Positions 1 to 5,198 of a DNA stretch of 5,198 nucleotides are shown here, one piece after another. This DNA is from an uncultured Verrucomicrobia subdivision 3 bacterium. GTDB taxonomy: Bacteria; Verrucomicrobiota; Verrucomicrobiae; Limisphaerales; CAMLLE01. The notes below the pieces were generated by a model. It made no database searches and had not been told where the DNA came from. It worked only from the letters and a program-made list of their open reading frames with translations. The stretch is taken from NCBI GenBank assembly GCA_946480555.1, contig CAMLLE010000284.1, positions 1 to 5,198 on the forward strand. The letters run 5' to 3'. Numbering within the stretch: the stretch's first letter is position 1; the number at the start of each line of letters is the position of its first letter. The position numbers and the translations under genes were made by a program.

Positions 1-2138
1 CGGTGCAGCACCCAATGACTGTTCACGTAAAGCAGCCGGCCATCCTTGCGCGTGTGGACCACCTCACCCTCCCAATGCCCTTCCTTGAATAGCACCTCGC
101 GCATCTCCTGGAGCGGCAGCGGGAACTTCGCCTTCAGCATCTCGTGCGAAACTTTGCCCATCATGTCCGTCCGCAGCCAGCCATACATGTTCTCCATGCC
201 GGAGTTCCACAGGATCACCCGGTCGTTCAAATCGCGCGCCATCACGTTCGCGAGATCCAGCATCTGCGCCTGCTCGCTCAAGACACGCGCCTGCCGCTGC
301 AGCGACGCCTCGGCGTTCATACGCTCGGTGATGTCGCGCAAGATGACTGTGAAGATCTGCTGTTTGCCGACCTCGATGTGCGAGATGGAGGCTTCAATCG
401 GGAATTCCTCACCGTCGAAGCGCAATCCGGAAAGCGGCCGCAGATGGCCCATTGCCCGCGCGGTTGTTCCCGTCTTTGCAAACTCGGCCACATGCTTCCG
501 ATGGTCGCGGCGAAAACGTTCCGGAATGAATTTGTCCAATGGCTGCCCGAGAGCGTCGGCTGCCTTGCAATGGAACATCCGTTCCGCCGCCGCATTGAAC
601 AGCGTGACACGTTGATTGGAATCCACGCTGATGATGGCGTCCATGGCGGAACCGATGATGCCCGACAAACGTGCACGGCTTTCTTGAAGCTCGATTTCAG
701 CGCGTTTGCGTTCGGTGATGTCGCGGGAGATCGAGGACACGCCGATGATGGCGCCCTGTGAACTGCGCACGGGCGAAGTCGTGAGCGAAACGGTAACGCG
801 CTGACCGTCCTTGCGGATGCGTTCCACTTCGTACTGGCGCGTTTCGCCGCGTCTGATTCCTTCGAGCAGCCGCTCCTCGAAGCCGACATCGTTCGGCAGC
901 AGCAGCCTGTCGATGCTCTGCCCCACCATTTCCTCCGCAGTGTAACCGTAGATGCGTTCGGCGCCCCGGTTCCAGCTGGTCACGACACCGTCCAAATTCT
1001 TCCCGATGATCGCATCGTCGGTCGAGGTGACGAGCGCCGCGAGCCAGCGGCTGGCTTCCTCCGCCTTCCGGCGTTCGGTCACGTTCTGGTTGACGCCGCT
1101 CATGCGGATGGGCTTGCCCGAGTCATCGTAAAAGCCGCTCCCGAGCGCCATGATGATGTGCCGCGAACCGTCCGGCCAGATGACCGGGAACTCCATCTCG
1201 AAATTGGACTTGCCGCGCAAAGCGTTTTGGACGGTTTGATTCACCGCGTCACGCCAGCCTTCGTCTATCAGGCTCAGGAAATGTTCGTACGTGCCGCGGA
1301 ATTCGCCGGGCTTCAATCCAAAGTTTGCGGCGTTGCGGTCGTCCCAAATCACTTTGCCCGTGGCCACATTCCAATCCCACGTGCCCGTGCGGGAGGCTTC
1401 CAGCGCCAGTCGCAAGCGCGAACCGCTTTCGTTCAAGGCAACCGTCTGTTCCTGGATGCGCGTCAGCATCTGATTGAACGCATCGGTCAACAGCCCGATT
1501 TCGTCATTGCTCACCTTCGACGCCCGAACCGAATAATCGCCTTTCTCAGAAACGTGCCGCGCGACTTCAGCGAGCATCAGGATGGGGCCGGAAACATGTT
1601 TTTGCAGCCGGTTTGACAGCAGGAGCGCCACGGCCAGCGCGCTCAACGTGATGATGCCGGAAATGACGCCATACAGCTTCATGCGCGCGTAAAACATGCG
1701 CAGATCGGCTTTGATGAAGACGGTGCCGTTCTTTCGCCCACTTTGCATCGCGGGCTCGAAGATCGCGATTGTTCCAGAGGCGAATTCGCGTCCCGGCTCG
1801 CCCGCCTTGGCCGGGAACTGGTTCGTCGGCGCATCGAATGGGTAAGTAAGGAACAGCTTGCCGTCCTCATCGTAAAGCGCGGCAGCGAGCACCTGGGGTT
1901 CGGCTGTCAGGGAACTCATGACGTCGCGCGCGTCCAGCTCATTCCGGAAGGCAAGCGCGGCGCCGCTGTTGTTGCCAATGACCTTGGCCAGCGTGGTGAA
2001 ATCGCGGACGACCTGGCTGCGGATGGTGTTCAGGTCGTAGATCATGAACGCCGAGACCGCCACCAGGACGGCGGTCATGCTCGTGATCATGATGGCCGCC
2101 ATGATCCGGCGGCGAATCGGCATCTCCCGCAACCTCAT
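1..2138 (-). CDS. Membrane sensor with CHASE8-like periplasmic domain, HAMP and at least four PAS domains (C-terminus beyond window)
   Basis: The frame is open from the ATG at 2138-2136 to the left edge, giving 712 complete residues with no stop. Visible order: basic N-terminus (PIRRRI), membrane segment about 12-35, periplasmic region about 36-154, second membrane segment about 155-176, HAMP about 177-230, then PAS domains at about 240-360 (PAS_3 type, TWDWN), 364-480, 490-608 and 620 onward. The first three end in the usual NVTERRKAE, DITERKRAE and DITERMNAE junctions. The periplasmic part matches the CHASE8 pattern of YfiN-type proteins: NNSGAALAFRNELDARDV, then PQVLAAALYDEDGKLFLTY. The fourth PAS is cut after about 93 residues. 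The output module (histidine kinase or GGDEF) would lie to the left, so the class of enzyme is undetermined. The start is firm: the ATG overlaps the upstream stop as ATGA and follows a GGAGGT ribosome site. CHASE8 next to a YfiR-family gene suggests that the YfiR-like protein binds this periplasmic domain. Confidence 0.93.
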   Translation of the reverse strand, partial: MRLREMPIRRRIMAAIMITSMTAVLVAVSAFMIYDLNTIRSQVVRDFTTLAKVIGNNSGAALAFRNELDARDVMSSLTAEPQVLAAALYDEDGKLFLTYPFDAPTNQFPAKAGEPGREFASGTIAIFEPAMQSGRKNGTVFIKADLRMFYARMKLYGVISGIITLSALAVALLLSNRLQKHVSGPILMLAEVARHVSEKGDYSVRASKVSNDEIGLLTDAFNQMLTRIQEQTVALNESGSRLRLALEASRTGTWDWNVATGKVIWDDRNAANFGLKPGEFRGTYEHFLSLIDEGWRDAVNQTVQNALRGKSNFEMEFPVIWPDGSRHIIMALGSGFYDDSGKPIRMSGVNQNVTERRKAEEASRWLAALVTSTDDAIIGKNLDGVVTSWNRGAERIYGYTAEEMVGQSIDRLLLPNDVGFEERLLEGIRRGETRQYEVERIRKDGQRVTVSLTTSPVRSSQGAIIGVSSISRDITERKRAEIELQESRARLSGIIGSAMDAIISVDSNQRVTLFNAAAERMFHCKAADALGQPLDKFIPERFRRDHRKHVAEFAKTGTTARAMGHLRPLSGLRFDGEEFPIEASISHIEVGKQQIFTVILRDITERMNAEASLQRQARVLSEQAQMLDLANVMARDLNDRVILWNSGMENMYGWLRTDMMGKVSHEMLKAKFPLPLQEMREVLFKEGHWEGEVVHTRKDGRLLYVNSHWVLH

Positions 2139-2148
2139 GGAGACCTCC
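2135..2148 (-). promoter_or_regulatory. Ribosome binding site and ATGA overlap that set the sensor start
   Basis: On the minus strand GGAGGT (2148-2143) lies four bases before the ATG at 2138-2136, inside the last codons of the yfiR-like gene. The ATG overlaps that gene's TGA (2137-2135) as ATGA. This is the best Shine-Dalgarno match in the operon. It fixes the start of the sensor and suggests that the sensor can be translated efficiently in its own right. Confidence 0.8.
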
Positions 2149-2755
2149 CCGCCGACACCAGCTCCGCCGCCCGCAGCAATTTCGAACTGAGGGTCAGGTC
2201 CGCCTCGGACACCGCTTCGAGATTGATGCGCACGCGCAGCTTGTTGCTGCGCTCCACGAAGCGGATCATCACCTCACGGCCTTCTTCGGTTTCCGCGTCC
2301 GCGACCGTTAGGATGGGCCGGTTTGCCAGCGCTTCAACCACGCGGTGGCTGCGGCGATTCTCCGAGGGCGCGATGAAAAGAATGTGACATTCCTTGATTT
2401 CCTCCACGCGGTCGTAGTGCTGCAGCGCCAGCGGCCGGCCGTTGATGAATTCCCCCTTCACCGTTTCCTGCAGCGCCTGTCCGAACGGATCGCGTCCGAG
2501 AACGCCGATCACGATGGGTGAATGGCTGTTCGTGAAAGCGTTGGTGGGCCATTGCGTGAACTGGGCGAAGTTGAAGAGAAATGCCGCCTTGAGCTGGTAC
2601 TCCCGGGAGCTGGATTGCGCGAACGCCGCTGGCAGGAACGCGAGCAGCAGGATCGACAAAAATGCGCCCGCATTGGGGGTGCGGCCTGGGCGAATCCAAG
2701 CAGGCCGGGTGAACTGCCCGGCTGTCCTCGCGAATCTGTTCACCGCCTGCCGCAT
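2135..2755 (-). CDS. YfiR/DUF4154-family periplasmic protein
   Basis: This encodes 206 residues from the ATG at 2755-2753, which shares its A with the receptor's TAA (TAATG). The frame is open further upstream to an ATG at 2893, but that start would place 46 extra residues inside the receptor gene and far from a signal peptide, so the coupled ATG is preferred. Residues 1-30 are a long basic N-region, 31-45 a hydrophobic core (SILLLAFLPAAFA), with likely signal peptidase cleavage after AFA46. The mature part shows DUF4154 hallmarks: EYQLKAAFLFNFAQFTQWP at 52-70, VIGVLGRDPFG at 82-92, NGRPL at 105-109, CHILFIAPSE at 123-132, ILTVADA at 148-154, a glycine-containing strand (EEGREVMIRF) and NKLRVRINLEA near 171-181, then SSKLLRAAELV. 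In Pseudomonas, YfiR is a periplasmic inhibitor of the CHASE8 diguanylate cyclase YfiN; a similar partner role with the downstream sensor is inferred. The mature protein has one cysteine (Cys123), so it cannot form the intramolecular disulfides described for Pseudomonas YfiR. Confidence 0.93.
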   Translation of the reverse strand: MRQAVNRFARTAGQFTRPAWIRPGRTPNAGAFLSILLLAFLPAAFAQSSSREYQLKAAFLFNFAQFTQWPTNAFTNSHSPIVIGVLGRDPFGQALQETVKGEFINGRPLALQHYDRVEEIKECHILFIAPSENRRSHRVVEALANRPILTVADAETEEGREVMIRFVERSNKLRVRINLEAVSEADLTLSSKLLRAAELVSAGRSP

Positions 2756-2757
2756 TA
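2753..2757 (-). promoter_or_regulatory. TAATG stop-start overlap (receptor to yfiR-like gene)
   Basis: The receptor stop TAA (2757-2755) and the ATG of the YfiR-family gene (2755-2753) share one base. The upstream bases (CGTTGCGTTTT) contain no purine-rich ribosome site at normal spacing, so translation of the second gene probably depends on terminating ribosomes from the receptor gene. Coupling itself is inferred. Confidence 0.7.
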
Positions 2758-4728
2758 AAAACGCAACGTCACTTTCCCAAATACGCTTCGCGGAACTTCC
2801 TGCCGGCTCGTTGCACTCCCGAATTCCGGATGTTGTTCGTCCCATAAGTTTTGCCCTACAACCGAAAACTCGACGTGCTCCGTCGGACGCCACCCGAGGC
2901 GCGCATCAAACGTAAAGTAACTGGGAACGTTCGGCGAGGGAAGTGTGTCCACAAAACGCCCCACCAGGTCGATTTCCACATTGCGCGGCAAATTGAACAT
3001 CGATTGCAGCAGCACCTGATGCCGCGGATCATTGCCCTCCGCGCGGCCGCGGTTCAGGTCCAGCCCGCCTTCCTCGCGCGCCACACGCCGTTCCAGGAAG
3101 GTGTAGCCGCCACGCACGCGCCACCATTCGCGAATCTGCCATGTGCCCAAAAGCTCCACACCCCAAGATTCCGCATGATTCCGGTTCCGAATGAGAAACT
3201 GATTGGTGGACACAGGCTCAAGGCTGCGGATGTTGTCGTAGAGATTGAAAAACGTGGCGGCCGACAGTGTAACCCGCCGGTGCGGCTGAATCCGGTAACC
3301 CAGTTCAAACGCCAGCACATCCTCCGAGACGAAATCGTCATTGGAAACCACATCCCCGAGCGGGCTTGGAATCAGGACGTCCGAATCGATCCGGCTTGGC
3401 GACCGCACGGCACGCGACACCGCCGACCATAGCAGTTGGTTGGGGGTCACCTGCCACGCAAGCCGGCCGCTCGGTTCGTACTCGAACCCGGAATAGTCGT
3501 TATGTTCCAGCTTGGTTCCAAAAGTTAACCGCAACCGGTCCGGCACCAGGGTGACTTCGTCCTGAACAAAGAAGCTGAACAAATGCAGGTTCCGCTTTCC
3601 CGGCAAAAAGGAAATCACTCCGGCATTCCCCACGTCATCCTCCATCAGCCGATAACCGCCGCCCCAGGTGATGGACTGACGTTCGCCGAGCGGAAACCGA
3701 TGTTGCAGGTCGAGATCGTACGTCCGCAGATCTTCGCTGAAAACGCCCGGCACCCGGCGCCACGTGCGGTCCACGTAAAGCTGAACGGAAAGGTCCGACT
3801 CATCGGAAATCACCCTCGTCCAACGGCCCAGCACATTCTGACCGTCCACCGTGGTGTCATTCCCGATACCTTCAATCGTGCCGCTGTAGAAATCGCCCTG
3901 CACCGTGAGGATGTTCTCAGATGAAGGCAGCCAGTCGGCCCGGAAACCACCTTGTGACATGTCCCAGGCGTTCGTCACTTCGCGCTTGTTCGCCAGGAGC
4001 ATCGGTTCACGATCGAACCGGAACCCATAAACGCGATAGAAGAAGTTCGATCCCACGCTGCCGCCGTAACGTACCGCGCCGTAATCCTGAAGGAACGAAC
4101 CGCCGCCGCCTTCAATCAATGTGCCCTGTGTGTCGCGGGCATTCTTGCTGACGATGTTGATCACGCCATTCACGGCATTGGCGCCCCACAGCGTTGCGCC
4201 CGGCCCGCTGACGACTTCGATGCGGTCCACGTCCGCCAGCAAGGTGTTTTGCACGTCCCAGAACACGCCCGCAAACAGCGGCGTGTAAACGGTGCGGCCA
4301 TCGATCATCACCAGCAATTTATTCGCGAGCGTGTTGTTGAACCCGCGAGAACTGATCGCCCACCCCGATGAACTCGTCTGGGCCACATTCAAGTTCGGCG
4401 CGAGCCGCAGGGCTTCCGGCAAACTCGTTGCGCCCGAACGGCGGATGTCTTCGCCCGTGACCACCTGGATGGCCGAGGGGGAACGGATCAGCTGCTCCGG
4501 TGTGCGGCTGACGAGGGTCACCTCCTGCTCCATCAATTCTTCCAGGCTGAGGCGCTTCAACGAGCTTCCGCTCGCAACGGAATCATTCGTTTGCGCCACC
4601 GTCGGCGTGGCCCCCAGACAGACGGCAGCCAGAAGGACCCGCGACAGAACTGGGCGATACGTCGGCGGTTGAGGACGAACGTTGGATTTCCGCGCAGAGG
4701 TGGAGATCGATTCAACCGCGATGCTCAT
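2755..4728 (-). CDS. TonB-dependent outer-membrane receptor (plug plus beta-barrel)
   Basis: This encodes 657 residues, complete and typical in length for a TonB-dependent receptor without extra N-terminal domains. A signal peptide is visible: basic N-region to Arg30, hydrophobic VLLAAVCLGATPTVA, cleavage likely after Ala45. A stretch LSLEELMEQEVTLVSRT (60-76) precedes the plug and may include the TonB box. The plug spans about 78-197, with SAIQVVTGEDIRRSGATSLP, LAPNLNVAQ, SSRGFNN, KLLVMIDGRTVYTPLF, VDRIEVVSGPGATLWGANA and VNGVINIVSK. The barrel follows, with alternating aromatic strands, SRAVRSPSRID at 438-448, a NLYDNIRSLEP segment near 495-505, and a C-terminal strand GKVTLRF ending in Phe, the usual BAM recognition signal. 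No STN domain is present, so FecA-type signalling to an anti-sigma factor is not expected. The substrate cannot be read from sequence. An in-frame TGA lies two codons before the ATG, so no longer start exists; no Shine-Dalgarno sequence is apparent. Confidence 0.96.
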   Translation of the reverse strand: MSIAVESISTSARKSNVRPQPPTYRPVLSRVLLAAVCLGATPTVAQTNDSVASGSSLKRLSLEELMEQEVTLVSRTPEQLIRSPSAIQVVTGEDIRRSGATSLPEALRLAPNLNVAQTSSSGWAISSRGFNNTLANKLLVMIDGRTVYTPLFAGVFWDVQNTLLADVDRIEVVSGPGATLWGANAVNGVINIVSKNARDTQGTLIEGGGGSFLQDYGAVRYGGSVGSNFFYRVYGFRFDREPMLLANKREVTNAWDMSQGGFRADWLPSSENILTVQGDFYSGTIEGIGNDTTVDGQNVLGRWTRVISDESDLSVQLYVDRTWRRVPGVFSEDLRTYDLDLQHRFPLGERQSITWGGGYRLMEDDVGNAGVISFLPGKRNLHLFSFFVQDEVTLVPDRLRLTFGTKLEHNDYSGFEYEPSGRLAWQVTPNQLLWSAVSRAVRSPSRIDSDVLIPSPLGDVVSNDDFVSEDVLAFELGYRIQPHRRVTLSAATFFNLYDNIRSLEPVSTNQFLIRNRNHAESWGVELLGTWQIREWWRVRGGYTFLERRVAREEGGLDLNRGRAEGNDPRHQVLLQSMFNLPRNVEIDLVGRFVDTLPSPNVPSYFTFDARLGWRPTEHVEFSVVGQNLWDEQHPEFGSATSRQEVPRSVFGKVTLRF

Positions 4729-4741
4729 GAGTCAAAGAATT

Positions 4742-4768
4742 TGCCGGAGAACCGCCTGCGGGACGGCA
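4742..4768 (-). promoter_or_regulatory. Nested inverted repeat just upstream of the receptor start
   Basis: TGCCG (4742-4746) pairs with CGGCA (4764-4768), enclosing a smaller CCGC/GCGG pair (4752-4755 and 4758-4761). It lies 14-40 bases before the receptor ATG, where folding would affect ribosome access on a message that has no visible Shine-Dalgarno sequence. The arms are short, so chance is possible in GC-rich DNA. Confidence 0.25.
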
Positions 4769-4796
4769 TTGGCACGCCGCCAGCCGATAGGAAGAT

Positions 4797-4822
4797 GAGC
4801 GGAAACACCCACGTTTCCGTTC
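4797..4822 (-). promoter_or_regulatory. Hairpin or operator-like inverted repeat in the receptor leader
   Basis: GGAAAC and GTTTCC form a perfect inverted repeat around a 6-base centre (4801-4818). The adjacent C-G pair extends it, and after one mismatch in the minus-strand RNA (a G-T pair in the plus strand) two more pairs follow, giving a stem of about 10 positions. It sits 69-94 bases upstream of the receptor ATG. No T-run follows, so it is not a classical terminator. It could be a leader RNA structure, a protein operator or part of a repeat. Confidence 0.45.
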
Positions 4823-4956
4823 CGGTCCGTCAAACGCAGCGACGATTGGATTCCACGAAGTTTGCGCCAACATCTTATGCGGGTGATTTGCCCGGAGTAT
4901 CGGCTGCGTTCTCCGAGGGGAGACATGGGGTGATGACCTACGCTATCCTCGGCAGG

Positions 4957-4994
4957 GAACATTCGATGCCGAACATTCAATATTGAGCGCTCAA
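4957..4994. repeat. GAACATTC direct repeat followed by two palindromes
   Basis: GAACATTC occurs at 4957-4964 and again at 4971-4978 (14-base period). It is followed by the perfect 8-base palindrome CAATATTG (4978-4985) and the perfect 12-base palindrome TTGAGCGCTCAA (4983-4994), which overlap by three bases. The pattern is read directly. It may be a remnant of a dispersed intergenic repeat rich in AACATTC/TTGAA words, or a regulator binding site upstream of the operon. Confidence 0.4.
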
Positions 4995-5039
4995 CACGGA
5001 CGCATCTCAACTTTTTGAATCGACCGCAGAGAGCCCAGA

Positions 5040-5198
5040 ATGCACGAATTGGGAGAGCTGGGAATCCTGCCTCCAGGCAGACGGCCAGCTACTTCACCGC
5101 TATCATTCGTCTCGAAGAACTGGGAATTCAGCTGCCGAGCGGCGTCAGAGCATCTCTGAAAAAAGGGAGCGCGGCTGTGTCGGAGATCAGCCGCAGCA
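5040..5198. repeat. Possible dispersed intergenic repeat segment, cut by the window edge
   Basis: Two related stretches, GAGCTGGGAATCCTGCC from 5055 and GAACTGGGAATTCAGCTGCC from 5117, share a core. The first runs into a CTGCCTCCAGGCAG inverted repeat (5067-5080). The 3' part (about 5160-5198) resembles repeats I recall scattered between genes in Verrucomicrobia, which read in translation like RERGC..DQPQ. The family identity is from memory and unverified. Confidence 0.3.
5159..5194 (-). terminator. Terminator-like hairpin with T-run (minus strand)
   Basis: On the minus strand GCGGCTG (5194-5188), a 10-base loop and CAGCCGC (5177-5171) form a perfect 7-base GC-rich stem. GCTCCC follows, then six T's (5164-5159). 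The six-base gap between stem and T-run is longer than in a classical rho-independent terminator. It could end an upstream minus-strand transcript entering from the right, or it may simply be part of a repeat. Confidence 0.25.

Follow-up and report, generated by a model that had tools for sequence, protein, structure and literature searches.

In the YfiBNR system of Pseudomonas aeruginosa, YfiB, YfiR and YfiN act from the outer membrane, the periplasm and the inner membrane respectively. More divergent systems were reported in 2012, which consist of a divergent YfiR plus a YfiN-like PAS protein, many of them with kinase, Hpt or GGDEF-EAL outputs, and almost all without YfiB in the account given there; the distant homologues aligned come from Opitutus, Ellin345, Geobacter, Rhodothermus and Desulfobacterium (PMC3375315). 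A YfiR-YfiN[PAS] core that has kinase outputs and no YfiB is thus known already from that paper, and a gene trio that includes such a core has been named by NCBIfam in the consecutive models NF053590, NF053591 and NF053592. Here we describe a stretch of 5,198 nucleotides (the window; contig CAMLLE010000284.1 of assembly GCA_946480555.1, from an uncultured Verrucomicrobia subdivision 3 bacterium) that carries the genes of a TonB-dependent receptor, a YfiR-like protein and a sensor with a CHASE8 domain. What is new here is the TonB receptor as a recurrent third member of the system, across eight phyla.

We hypothesise that the three genes together encode a single sensory module across the envelope, in which the state of the receptor is read by the YfiR-like protein, which gates a kinase; this is the reading that we favour, with modest confidence. 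The outer-membrane receptor, filling the place of YfiB, would bind a ligand. The periplasmic YfiR-like protein would read the state of the receptor, probably by way of the flexible N-terminal segment and plug of the latter, and its C-terminal region would dock on an AALAF patch of the CHASE8 domain and so gate the sensor. In relatives this sensor is a histidine kinase, and in many cases the gene behind it encodes a response regulator. The trio recurs in very distant bacteria, and is therefore probably a little-studied route for an outside signal through the whole envelope.

Recurrence of the gene trio

According to the open reading frame (ORF) calls, the three genes run along the minus strand from the receptor (4728-2755) through the YfiR-like gene (2755-2135) to the sensor (2138 to the window end). 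The receptor stop and the YfiR-like start have base 2755 in common (TAATG), and bases 2135-2138 are common to the YfiR-like stop and the sensor start (ATGA). An earlier reading, made from the letters of the window alone (the sequence-only reading), had noted these overlaps of 1 and 4 bases, and the ORF coordinates confirm them.

The arrangement is well conserved. Among the 80 loci with the closest YfiR relatives, receptor, YfiR and CHASE8 genes follow one another in that order in 68 (65 under a stricter first rule), and CHASE8 is downstream in 77. A wide survey covered 1,535 genomes in eight phyla, where the phylum label is that of the genome central to each survey. A YfiR-like match at E 1e-12 was found in 211 of these genomes, and a match above the family cut-off in 114. 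Counts were made with profiles built for this analysis, and cover 263 of 277 YfiR-like places; those left out comprise 2 from Pseudomonadota, 10 from Acidobacteria and 2 from Desulfobacterota (14 in all). One tandem YfiR gene is counted twice (loci L152 and L163), and at 14 survey places the YfiR is one that also belongs to the 80-locus set. The receptor counts are lower bounds, because many loci extend only about 1.5 kb per side.

A CHASE8 sensor lies directly downstream of the YfiR-like gene at 224 of the 263 places, and a kinase is downstream of it or fused to it at 230. The TonB receptor is directly upstream at 171 places, and at 41 more it lies elsewhere at a distance of up to 7 kb, on one strand or the other, making 212. 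Both CHASE8 and a receptor in one of these positions are present at 183 places, and the exact order of the window, receptor-YfiR-CHASE8, at 154. The recurrent three-layer module that the sequence-only reading had proposed is thus borne out by the gene neighbourhoods.

The association also holds in a single phylum: across 198 Desulfobacterota genomes, YfiR is present in 19 of the 20 that have a receptor (hypergeometric P 2e-20), and is no more than 5 kb away from 21 of the 26 receptor genes and from 27 of the 34 CHASE8 genes. The members are also kept under altered order, as in YfiR-receptor-CHASE8 (L365), or CHASE8-GGDEF, then receptor, then YfiR (L363). Other orders seen are GGDEF, then YfiR, then receptor (L331), and sensor, then receptor (L243, L245). 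Chance adjacency of the trio is ruled out by the 80-locus, eight-phylum and Desulfobacterota counts.

The counts also bear on whether the receptor might be the output of the system, with YfiR and CHASE8 as sensors of envelope or redox state and the receptor gene under the control of the kinase from the same operon. This appears improbable, given that a receptor is beside the YfiR-like gene or within 7 kb of it at so many places, that it is kept when the genes are reordered or YfiR is fused to the kinase, and that the receptors have a common periplasm-facing segment (discussed below). What speaks for it is that operon mates are often co-regulated, that some YfiR-CHASE8 pairs have no receptor in the flanks examined, and that PMC4887326 cites a role for YfiR, independent of YfiB, in sensing the redox status of the periplasm.

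Several loci depart from the common pattern. One genome (G310) has six YfiR-like genes (L285, L331, L332, L333, L343 and L349), five of which directly adjoin a same-strand TonB receptor, while the sixth has an opposite-strand one; four of the six have no CHASE8 sensor or kinase downstream, and one comes after an HDOD-receiver-GGDEF gene. A tandem pair of YfiR-like genes is found at L254 (the same place as L163), and a Thauera system with two YfiR homologues has been reported (PMC3375315). At L246 (7186-9813), the gene 5' of the YfiR-CHASE8 pair encodes an 875-residue TonB barrel with a carboxypeptidase-like regulatory domain, whose N-terminus looks STN-like by eye, yet has no STN by Pfam. The YfiR-like gene of L253 (3628-6865) is followed by a 305-residue protein with no Pfam match and then a HAMP-SpoIIE protein, with no receptor seen in the 13 kb covered; that of L261 (2940-6650) is followed by a HAMP-GAF hybrid kinase without CHASE8, and that of L263 (6568-9081) by a GAF-PAS protein. 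Finally, L026 (5925-8468) has receptor and YfiR matches in one ORF and a receptor piece in another frame, and is probably an assembly frameshift, not a true fusion.

The YfiR-like protein and its sensor

The YfiR-like gene (2135..2755, minus strand, with its ATG at 2755) encodes a periplasmic protein of 206 residues that belongs to the TOL_0243 family. It matches DUF4154 (YfiR/HmsC-like; 2.6e-43 by Pfam) and passes NF053591 (YfiR_like_TOL0243) with 154.6 bits against a curated cut-off of 125. It lies below the NCBIfam equivalog for YfiR itself, NF053586 (30.1 bits against 85). The closest named relative is from a Verrucomicrobiae bacterium, at 68% identity. The AlphaFold2 model of the protein has a mean pLDDT (predicted local distance difference test) of 84, and its 15 best matches in the PDB are YfiR chains (Foldseek, best E 4.4e-8). 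After these come small proteins from R. marinus with the title substrate-binding protein (8wgl, 6k1x, 5z6v), which are possibly unrecognised YfiR-like proteins.

The sensor gene (3..2138, minus strand) is cut by the window end, with 712 residues seen. From the ORF, NF053592 and Pfam, it encodes a CHASE8 periplasmic domain at residues 42-140 (1719..2015; PF17152, 1.7e-11), a HAMP domain at residues 180-230 (1449..1601; PF00672, 3.2e-10) and, from residue 263, a series of PAS repeats (3..1352), recognised as PAS families and as four sensory-box stretches by NCBIfam, with the output domain beyond the window. Over residues 7-229 it passes NF053592 (HK_near_YfiR_like; 240.8 bits against a curated cut-off of 194), a model described as 'sensor histidine kinase, YfiR-like protein-associated'.

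For the output domain, 67 full-length sensors from the 80 loci of close relatives were scanned. They contain HATPase_c (67), CHASE8 (67), HisKA (66), HAMP (64) and receiver (19) domains, and GGDEF is not among their 25 commonest families. The full-length sensors of the close relatives are histidine kinases, 67 out of 67. The sequence-only reading had likened the locus to a module controlling cyclic di-GMP (c-di-GMP): its Yfi-like core stands, on the YfiR fold and the family matches, whereas c-di-GMP synthesis as the rule for the output in relatives is ruled out by the kinase domains, the CHASE8-GGDEF variant being that of L363. In 31 of the 67 loci a response regulator, picked by eye from the N-termini, follows within 250 bases after the sensor. 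Two aspartates and one lysine are invariant in the alignment of these regulators, which we take to be the usual response-regulator signature.

The C-terminus of YfiR has been proposed to bind the AAVVF motif of YfiN (PMC3375315). The window sensor has a similar motif, AALAF, at residues 60-64 (1947..1961, minus strand), a candidate YfiR-binding patch, and the column of its phenylalanine (F64) is Phe in 301 of 305 relatives. Covariation between YfiR and sensor was calculated for 281 operon pairs, 24 of the 305 having been removed as duplicates or gapped, and was compared with seven nulls in which partners were swapped between near neighbours (30-36 rows per swap kept their own partner). The top 100 couplings include 25 between YfiR and sensor, against 2-7 in the nulls. 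By sensor region they divide into 16 periplasmic (nulls 0-3), 3 in HAMP (0-2), 1 in the second transmembrane helix (TM2; 0-3) and 5 in TM1 with the N-terminus (0-4). The maximum has a z of 6.2, against 4.1-5.0 in the nulls.

The couplings to the sensor that rank highest are R195-L88 (19th overall), K192-G59 (31st) and K192-D72 (38th); all three involve YfiR residue K192 or R195, and join the C-terminal region of YfiR to the surroundings of AALAF. Both residues fall in the stretch 190-200 (SSKLLRAAELV; 2156..2188, minus strand) that is proposed to dock on CHASE8. The coupling pattern is consistent with a contact between the YfiR-like protein and the CHASE8 domain, as the sequence-only reading had supposed, and lends that contact moderate support.

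The receptor and its possible link to the YfiR-like protein

The receptor gene (2755..4728, minus strand) encodes 657 residues and belongs to the TOL_0244 family by its match to NF053590 (TonB_dep_TOL0244; 789.6 bits against a curated cut-off of 645). It has a Plug domain at residues 81-189 (4162..4488; PF07715, 3.6e-20) and a β-barrel at residues 214-628 (2845..4089; PF00593, 5.5e-28). There is no Pfam match to an STN domain at E 0.001, in keeping with the sequence-only reading of a receptor that lacks one. The AlphaFold2 model has a mean pLDDT of 84, falling below 50 over most of residues 39-68, with a short helix at 62-66. Residues 57-68, LKRLSLEELMEQ (4525..4560, minus strand), are the N-terminal segment common to YfiR-linked receptors. 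They are followed at residues 69-74 (4507..4524, minus strand) by EVTLVS, which we take to be TonB-box-like from its resemblance to TonB boxes; V73 and S74 are at least 90% conserved in an alignment of 33 receptors. The region 5' of the receptor gene (4729-5198) holds no convincing gene, sigma-70-like promoter or Rfam match. In the window as a whole, sigma-70-like promoters number 0 against a mean of 1.2 in shuffles, which says little, and an Rfam scan gave nothing at gathering thresholds.

Does the receptor touch the YfiR-like protein? For the receptor N-terminus and plug (210 pairs), 26 of the top 100 couplings are with YfiR (4-11 in ten nulls), and receptor residues 58-84 account for all of the eight strongest. 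In a set of 175 triples the receptor-YfiR figure is 29, against 9-15 in three nulls. This is at most suggestive of a direct contact. The sequence-only reading had further proposed that ligand binding or TonB action changes the hold of YfiR on CHASE8, which goes beyond what such weak covariation can show.

The N-terminal segment provides a second line of evidence. A scoring matrix was trained on 131 receptors of over 300 bits, and applied to divergent receptors within 6 kb of YfiR ('near') and to 25 control receptors from module-carrying genomes, 5 of an initial 30 having been removed (four beside YfiR, one unclear). An LxxLSLEELMxI segment scores above the 95th percentile of the controls in 75 of the 81 divergent near-YfiR receptors (area under the curve, AUC, 0.959), and the first ten matrix columns alone do so in 54 (AUC 0.909). 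The one control that clearly has the segment, L488, reaches 687 bits with the receptor profile, and a YfiR gene is found about 13 kb from it on the same contig. This matrix test is post hoc, having been framed after the sequences and the results of an earlier motif expression had been inspected; among close receptors that expression matched 76 of 126 that were adjacent and 7 of 10 that were not, and among divergent receptors 22 of 58 and 15 of 56, respectively. Near-YfiR receptors also have more closely related plugs in general (median 108 bits, against 65), and shared descent therefore explains part of the sharing. Thirteen near-YfiR receptors have plugs no more closely related than that of the median control, and the segment is nevertheless kept in 10 of them.

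There are also fusions. In each of five loci, YfiR is joined in a single protein to a histidine kinase, by way of a long coiled coil (about 130-190 residues) and then one TM helix (L258:5612-7744, L259:5668-8049, L260:6079-8409, L262:4232-6514 and L234:1-1881). Four of the five directly follow a TonB receptor confirmed by Pfam; L234, which is cut by the contig end, has no receptor seen in 8 kb. None of the five has a Pfam match to CHASE8, and NF053590, NF053591 and NF053592 are absent from the 25 best matches of the three fusions scanned. A search for long proteins gave 188 long YfiR proteins at E 1e-8 or better, and among the 120 of these that were listed, a kinase core is present in 106 and a match to the CHASE8 profile in none. 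By simple hydropathy, the distance from the YfiR end to the membrane is 138-160 residues among the listed proteins (5th to 95th percentile). In the 116 listed proteins whose coil start could be set, the coil has a median of 138 residues with peaks at 131, 138 and 145; 78 of the 116 are in one heptad phase, and the coils have a median identity of about 36%. With a rise of 0.1485 nm per residue, the coil would be about 20 nm long, near the width of the periplasm. Its length suggests that YfiR is held at the outer membrane in the fusions.

More tentatively, these observations can be drawn together in a specific model, that of a TonB-receptor transducer independent of STN. The LxxLSLEEL segment and the plug would dock on YfiR, which would relay to the histidine kinase, and the fused YfiR, carried on a heptad-stepped coil of about 20 nm, would span the periplasm and touch the receptor.

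The fusions also restrict how YfiR could act. In the manner of YfiB, an activated receptor might pull soluble YfiR off CHASE8, which is a special case of the favoured reading and one that we think rather unlikely as it stands. The fused YfiR is tied to its kinase and cannot be removed, and therefore sequestration cannot be the only mode. YfiB grips YfiR partly through the surface proposed for YfiN, as reported in PMC4887326. Five YfiR residues hold F57 of YfiB, and the counterparts of two of these, V176 and L181, are strongly hydrophobic (L189 and L194 in the window protein), whereas the other three positions are mixed or small (L179 is Leu in 117 of 305; V182 is Ala in 182; S191 is Ser or Ala in 283).

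The main rival to signalling by contact is import followed by sensing, in which the receptor transports a cargo that the YfiR-like protein binds as co-sensor of the kinase, with no need for receptor and YfiR to meet. YfiR of P. aeruginosa is reported to have a single hydrophobic pocket that binds both vitamin B6 and L-Trp (PMC4887326), and the titles of the R. marinus fold matches fit such a role. TOL_0244, the protein of Thalassolituus oleivorans MIL-1 from which the family takes its name, is a proposed importer of long-chain alkanes, and is sevenfold up on n-C28 compared to Tween 80 (PMC6304351). Two of the fusion-linked receptors match the TOL_0244 model only over the N-terminus and plug, and have barrels unlike that of TOL_0244, in line with varied cargo. 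By itself, however, import does not explain why receptors with different barrels have an N-terminal segment in common, nor the stalk of about 20 nm, though the stalk could place YfiR at the exit of the receptor. We judge it the less probable explanation, and somewhat doubtful, and return to the favoured reading, in which YfiR reads the receptor itself.

We infer that receptor and YfiR are in contact and that the receptor is the input, and likewise infer the direction of the regulation; a number of results weigh against the reading as a whole. No receptor is seen at 51 of the 263 places, 33 of which extend for 3 kb or more in each direction; a sensor is missing beside several receptor-YfiR pairs; and 7 of the 34 Desulfobacterota CHASE8 genes have no YfiR within 5 kb. 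The window sensor ends inside the PAS region, so that its own output lies outside the window. Common descent also keeps coil lengths alike. When the whole receptor is compared with YfiR (212 pairs), covariation is not above seven nulls; for the N-terminus and plug, the N-terminal share of the top 30 is 11, close to the 6-10 of the nulls; and in the 175 triples receptor and sensor, which are hardly expected to touch, are also raised (17 against 6-13 in four nulls). Between YfiR and sensor, ranks 39, 42 and 47 are taken by couplings of YfiR with TM1, HAMP and the cytoplasmic N-terminus, none of which is possible as a contact, and the interface patch set from the published proposal holds 6 of the top 50, against 1-6 in the nulls, one of which is equal. 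In one null the highest single coupling (0.172) is above that of the real pairs (0.157), and of the 100 strongest couplings between the two proteins 52 fall in the periplasmic part, no more than expected from the numbers of columns; our confidence in the mechanism is slightly lowered because of these last two results.

Comparison with known systems

In transducers of the FecA-FecR type, a TonB receptor starts an outside-in signal. The receptor of the window resembles them in its proposed role at the start of such a signal, and differs in having no STN domain; in addition, no FecR-like or sigma-factor gene is apparent among the window ORFs, of which the three main ones were scanned. If the receptor is the input, the trio would be a widespread route for TonB receptors without STN to control two-component kinases, and the fusions would be a compact system in which to test receptor-to-kinase signalling across the periplasm. 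All three window proteins pass the models of the NCBIfam trio, which give names, not mechanism.

YfiBNR of P. aeruginosa is alike in its YfiR fold and DUF4154 family, in having one protein per envelope layer, in the CHASE8/PAS periplasmic domain with an AAVVF-like motif (AALAF in the window) and HAMP, and in that the strongest couplings found here lie near its proposed YfiR-YfiN docking surface (PMC3375315, PMC4887326, PMC2837407). It is unlike in two respects. The window has a TonB receptor in place of the OmpA/Pal-like lipoprotein YfiB, no gene for a lipoprotein of that type being apparent in the window, and the output in relatives of the window is a kinase, whereas that of YfiBNR is GGDEF.

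The divergent Yfi systems are alike in their core, a YfiR-YfiN[PAS] pair, in many cases with kinase or other outputs and almost always with no YfiB (PMC3375315). The main texts of PMC3375315 and PMC2837407 do not mention TonB, and we found no paper in the open-access full-text literature on a TonB receptor as a partner of YfiR. The lack of YfiB in almost all of these systems had left their outer-membrane input open. It is to this core that the present analysis adds a recurrent third member, the TonB receptor.

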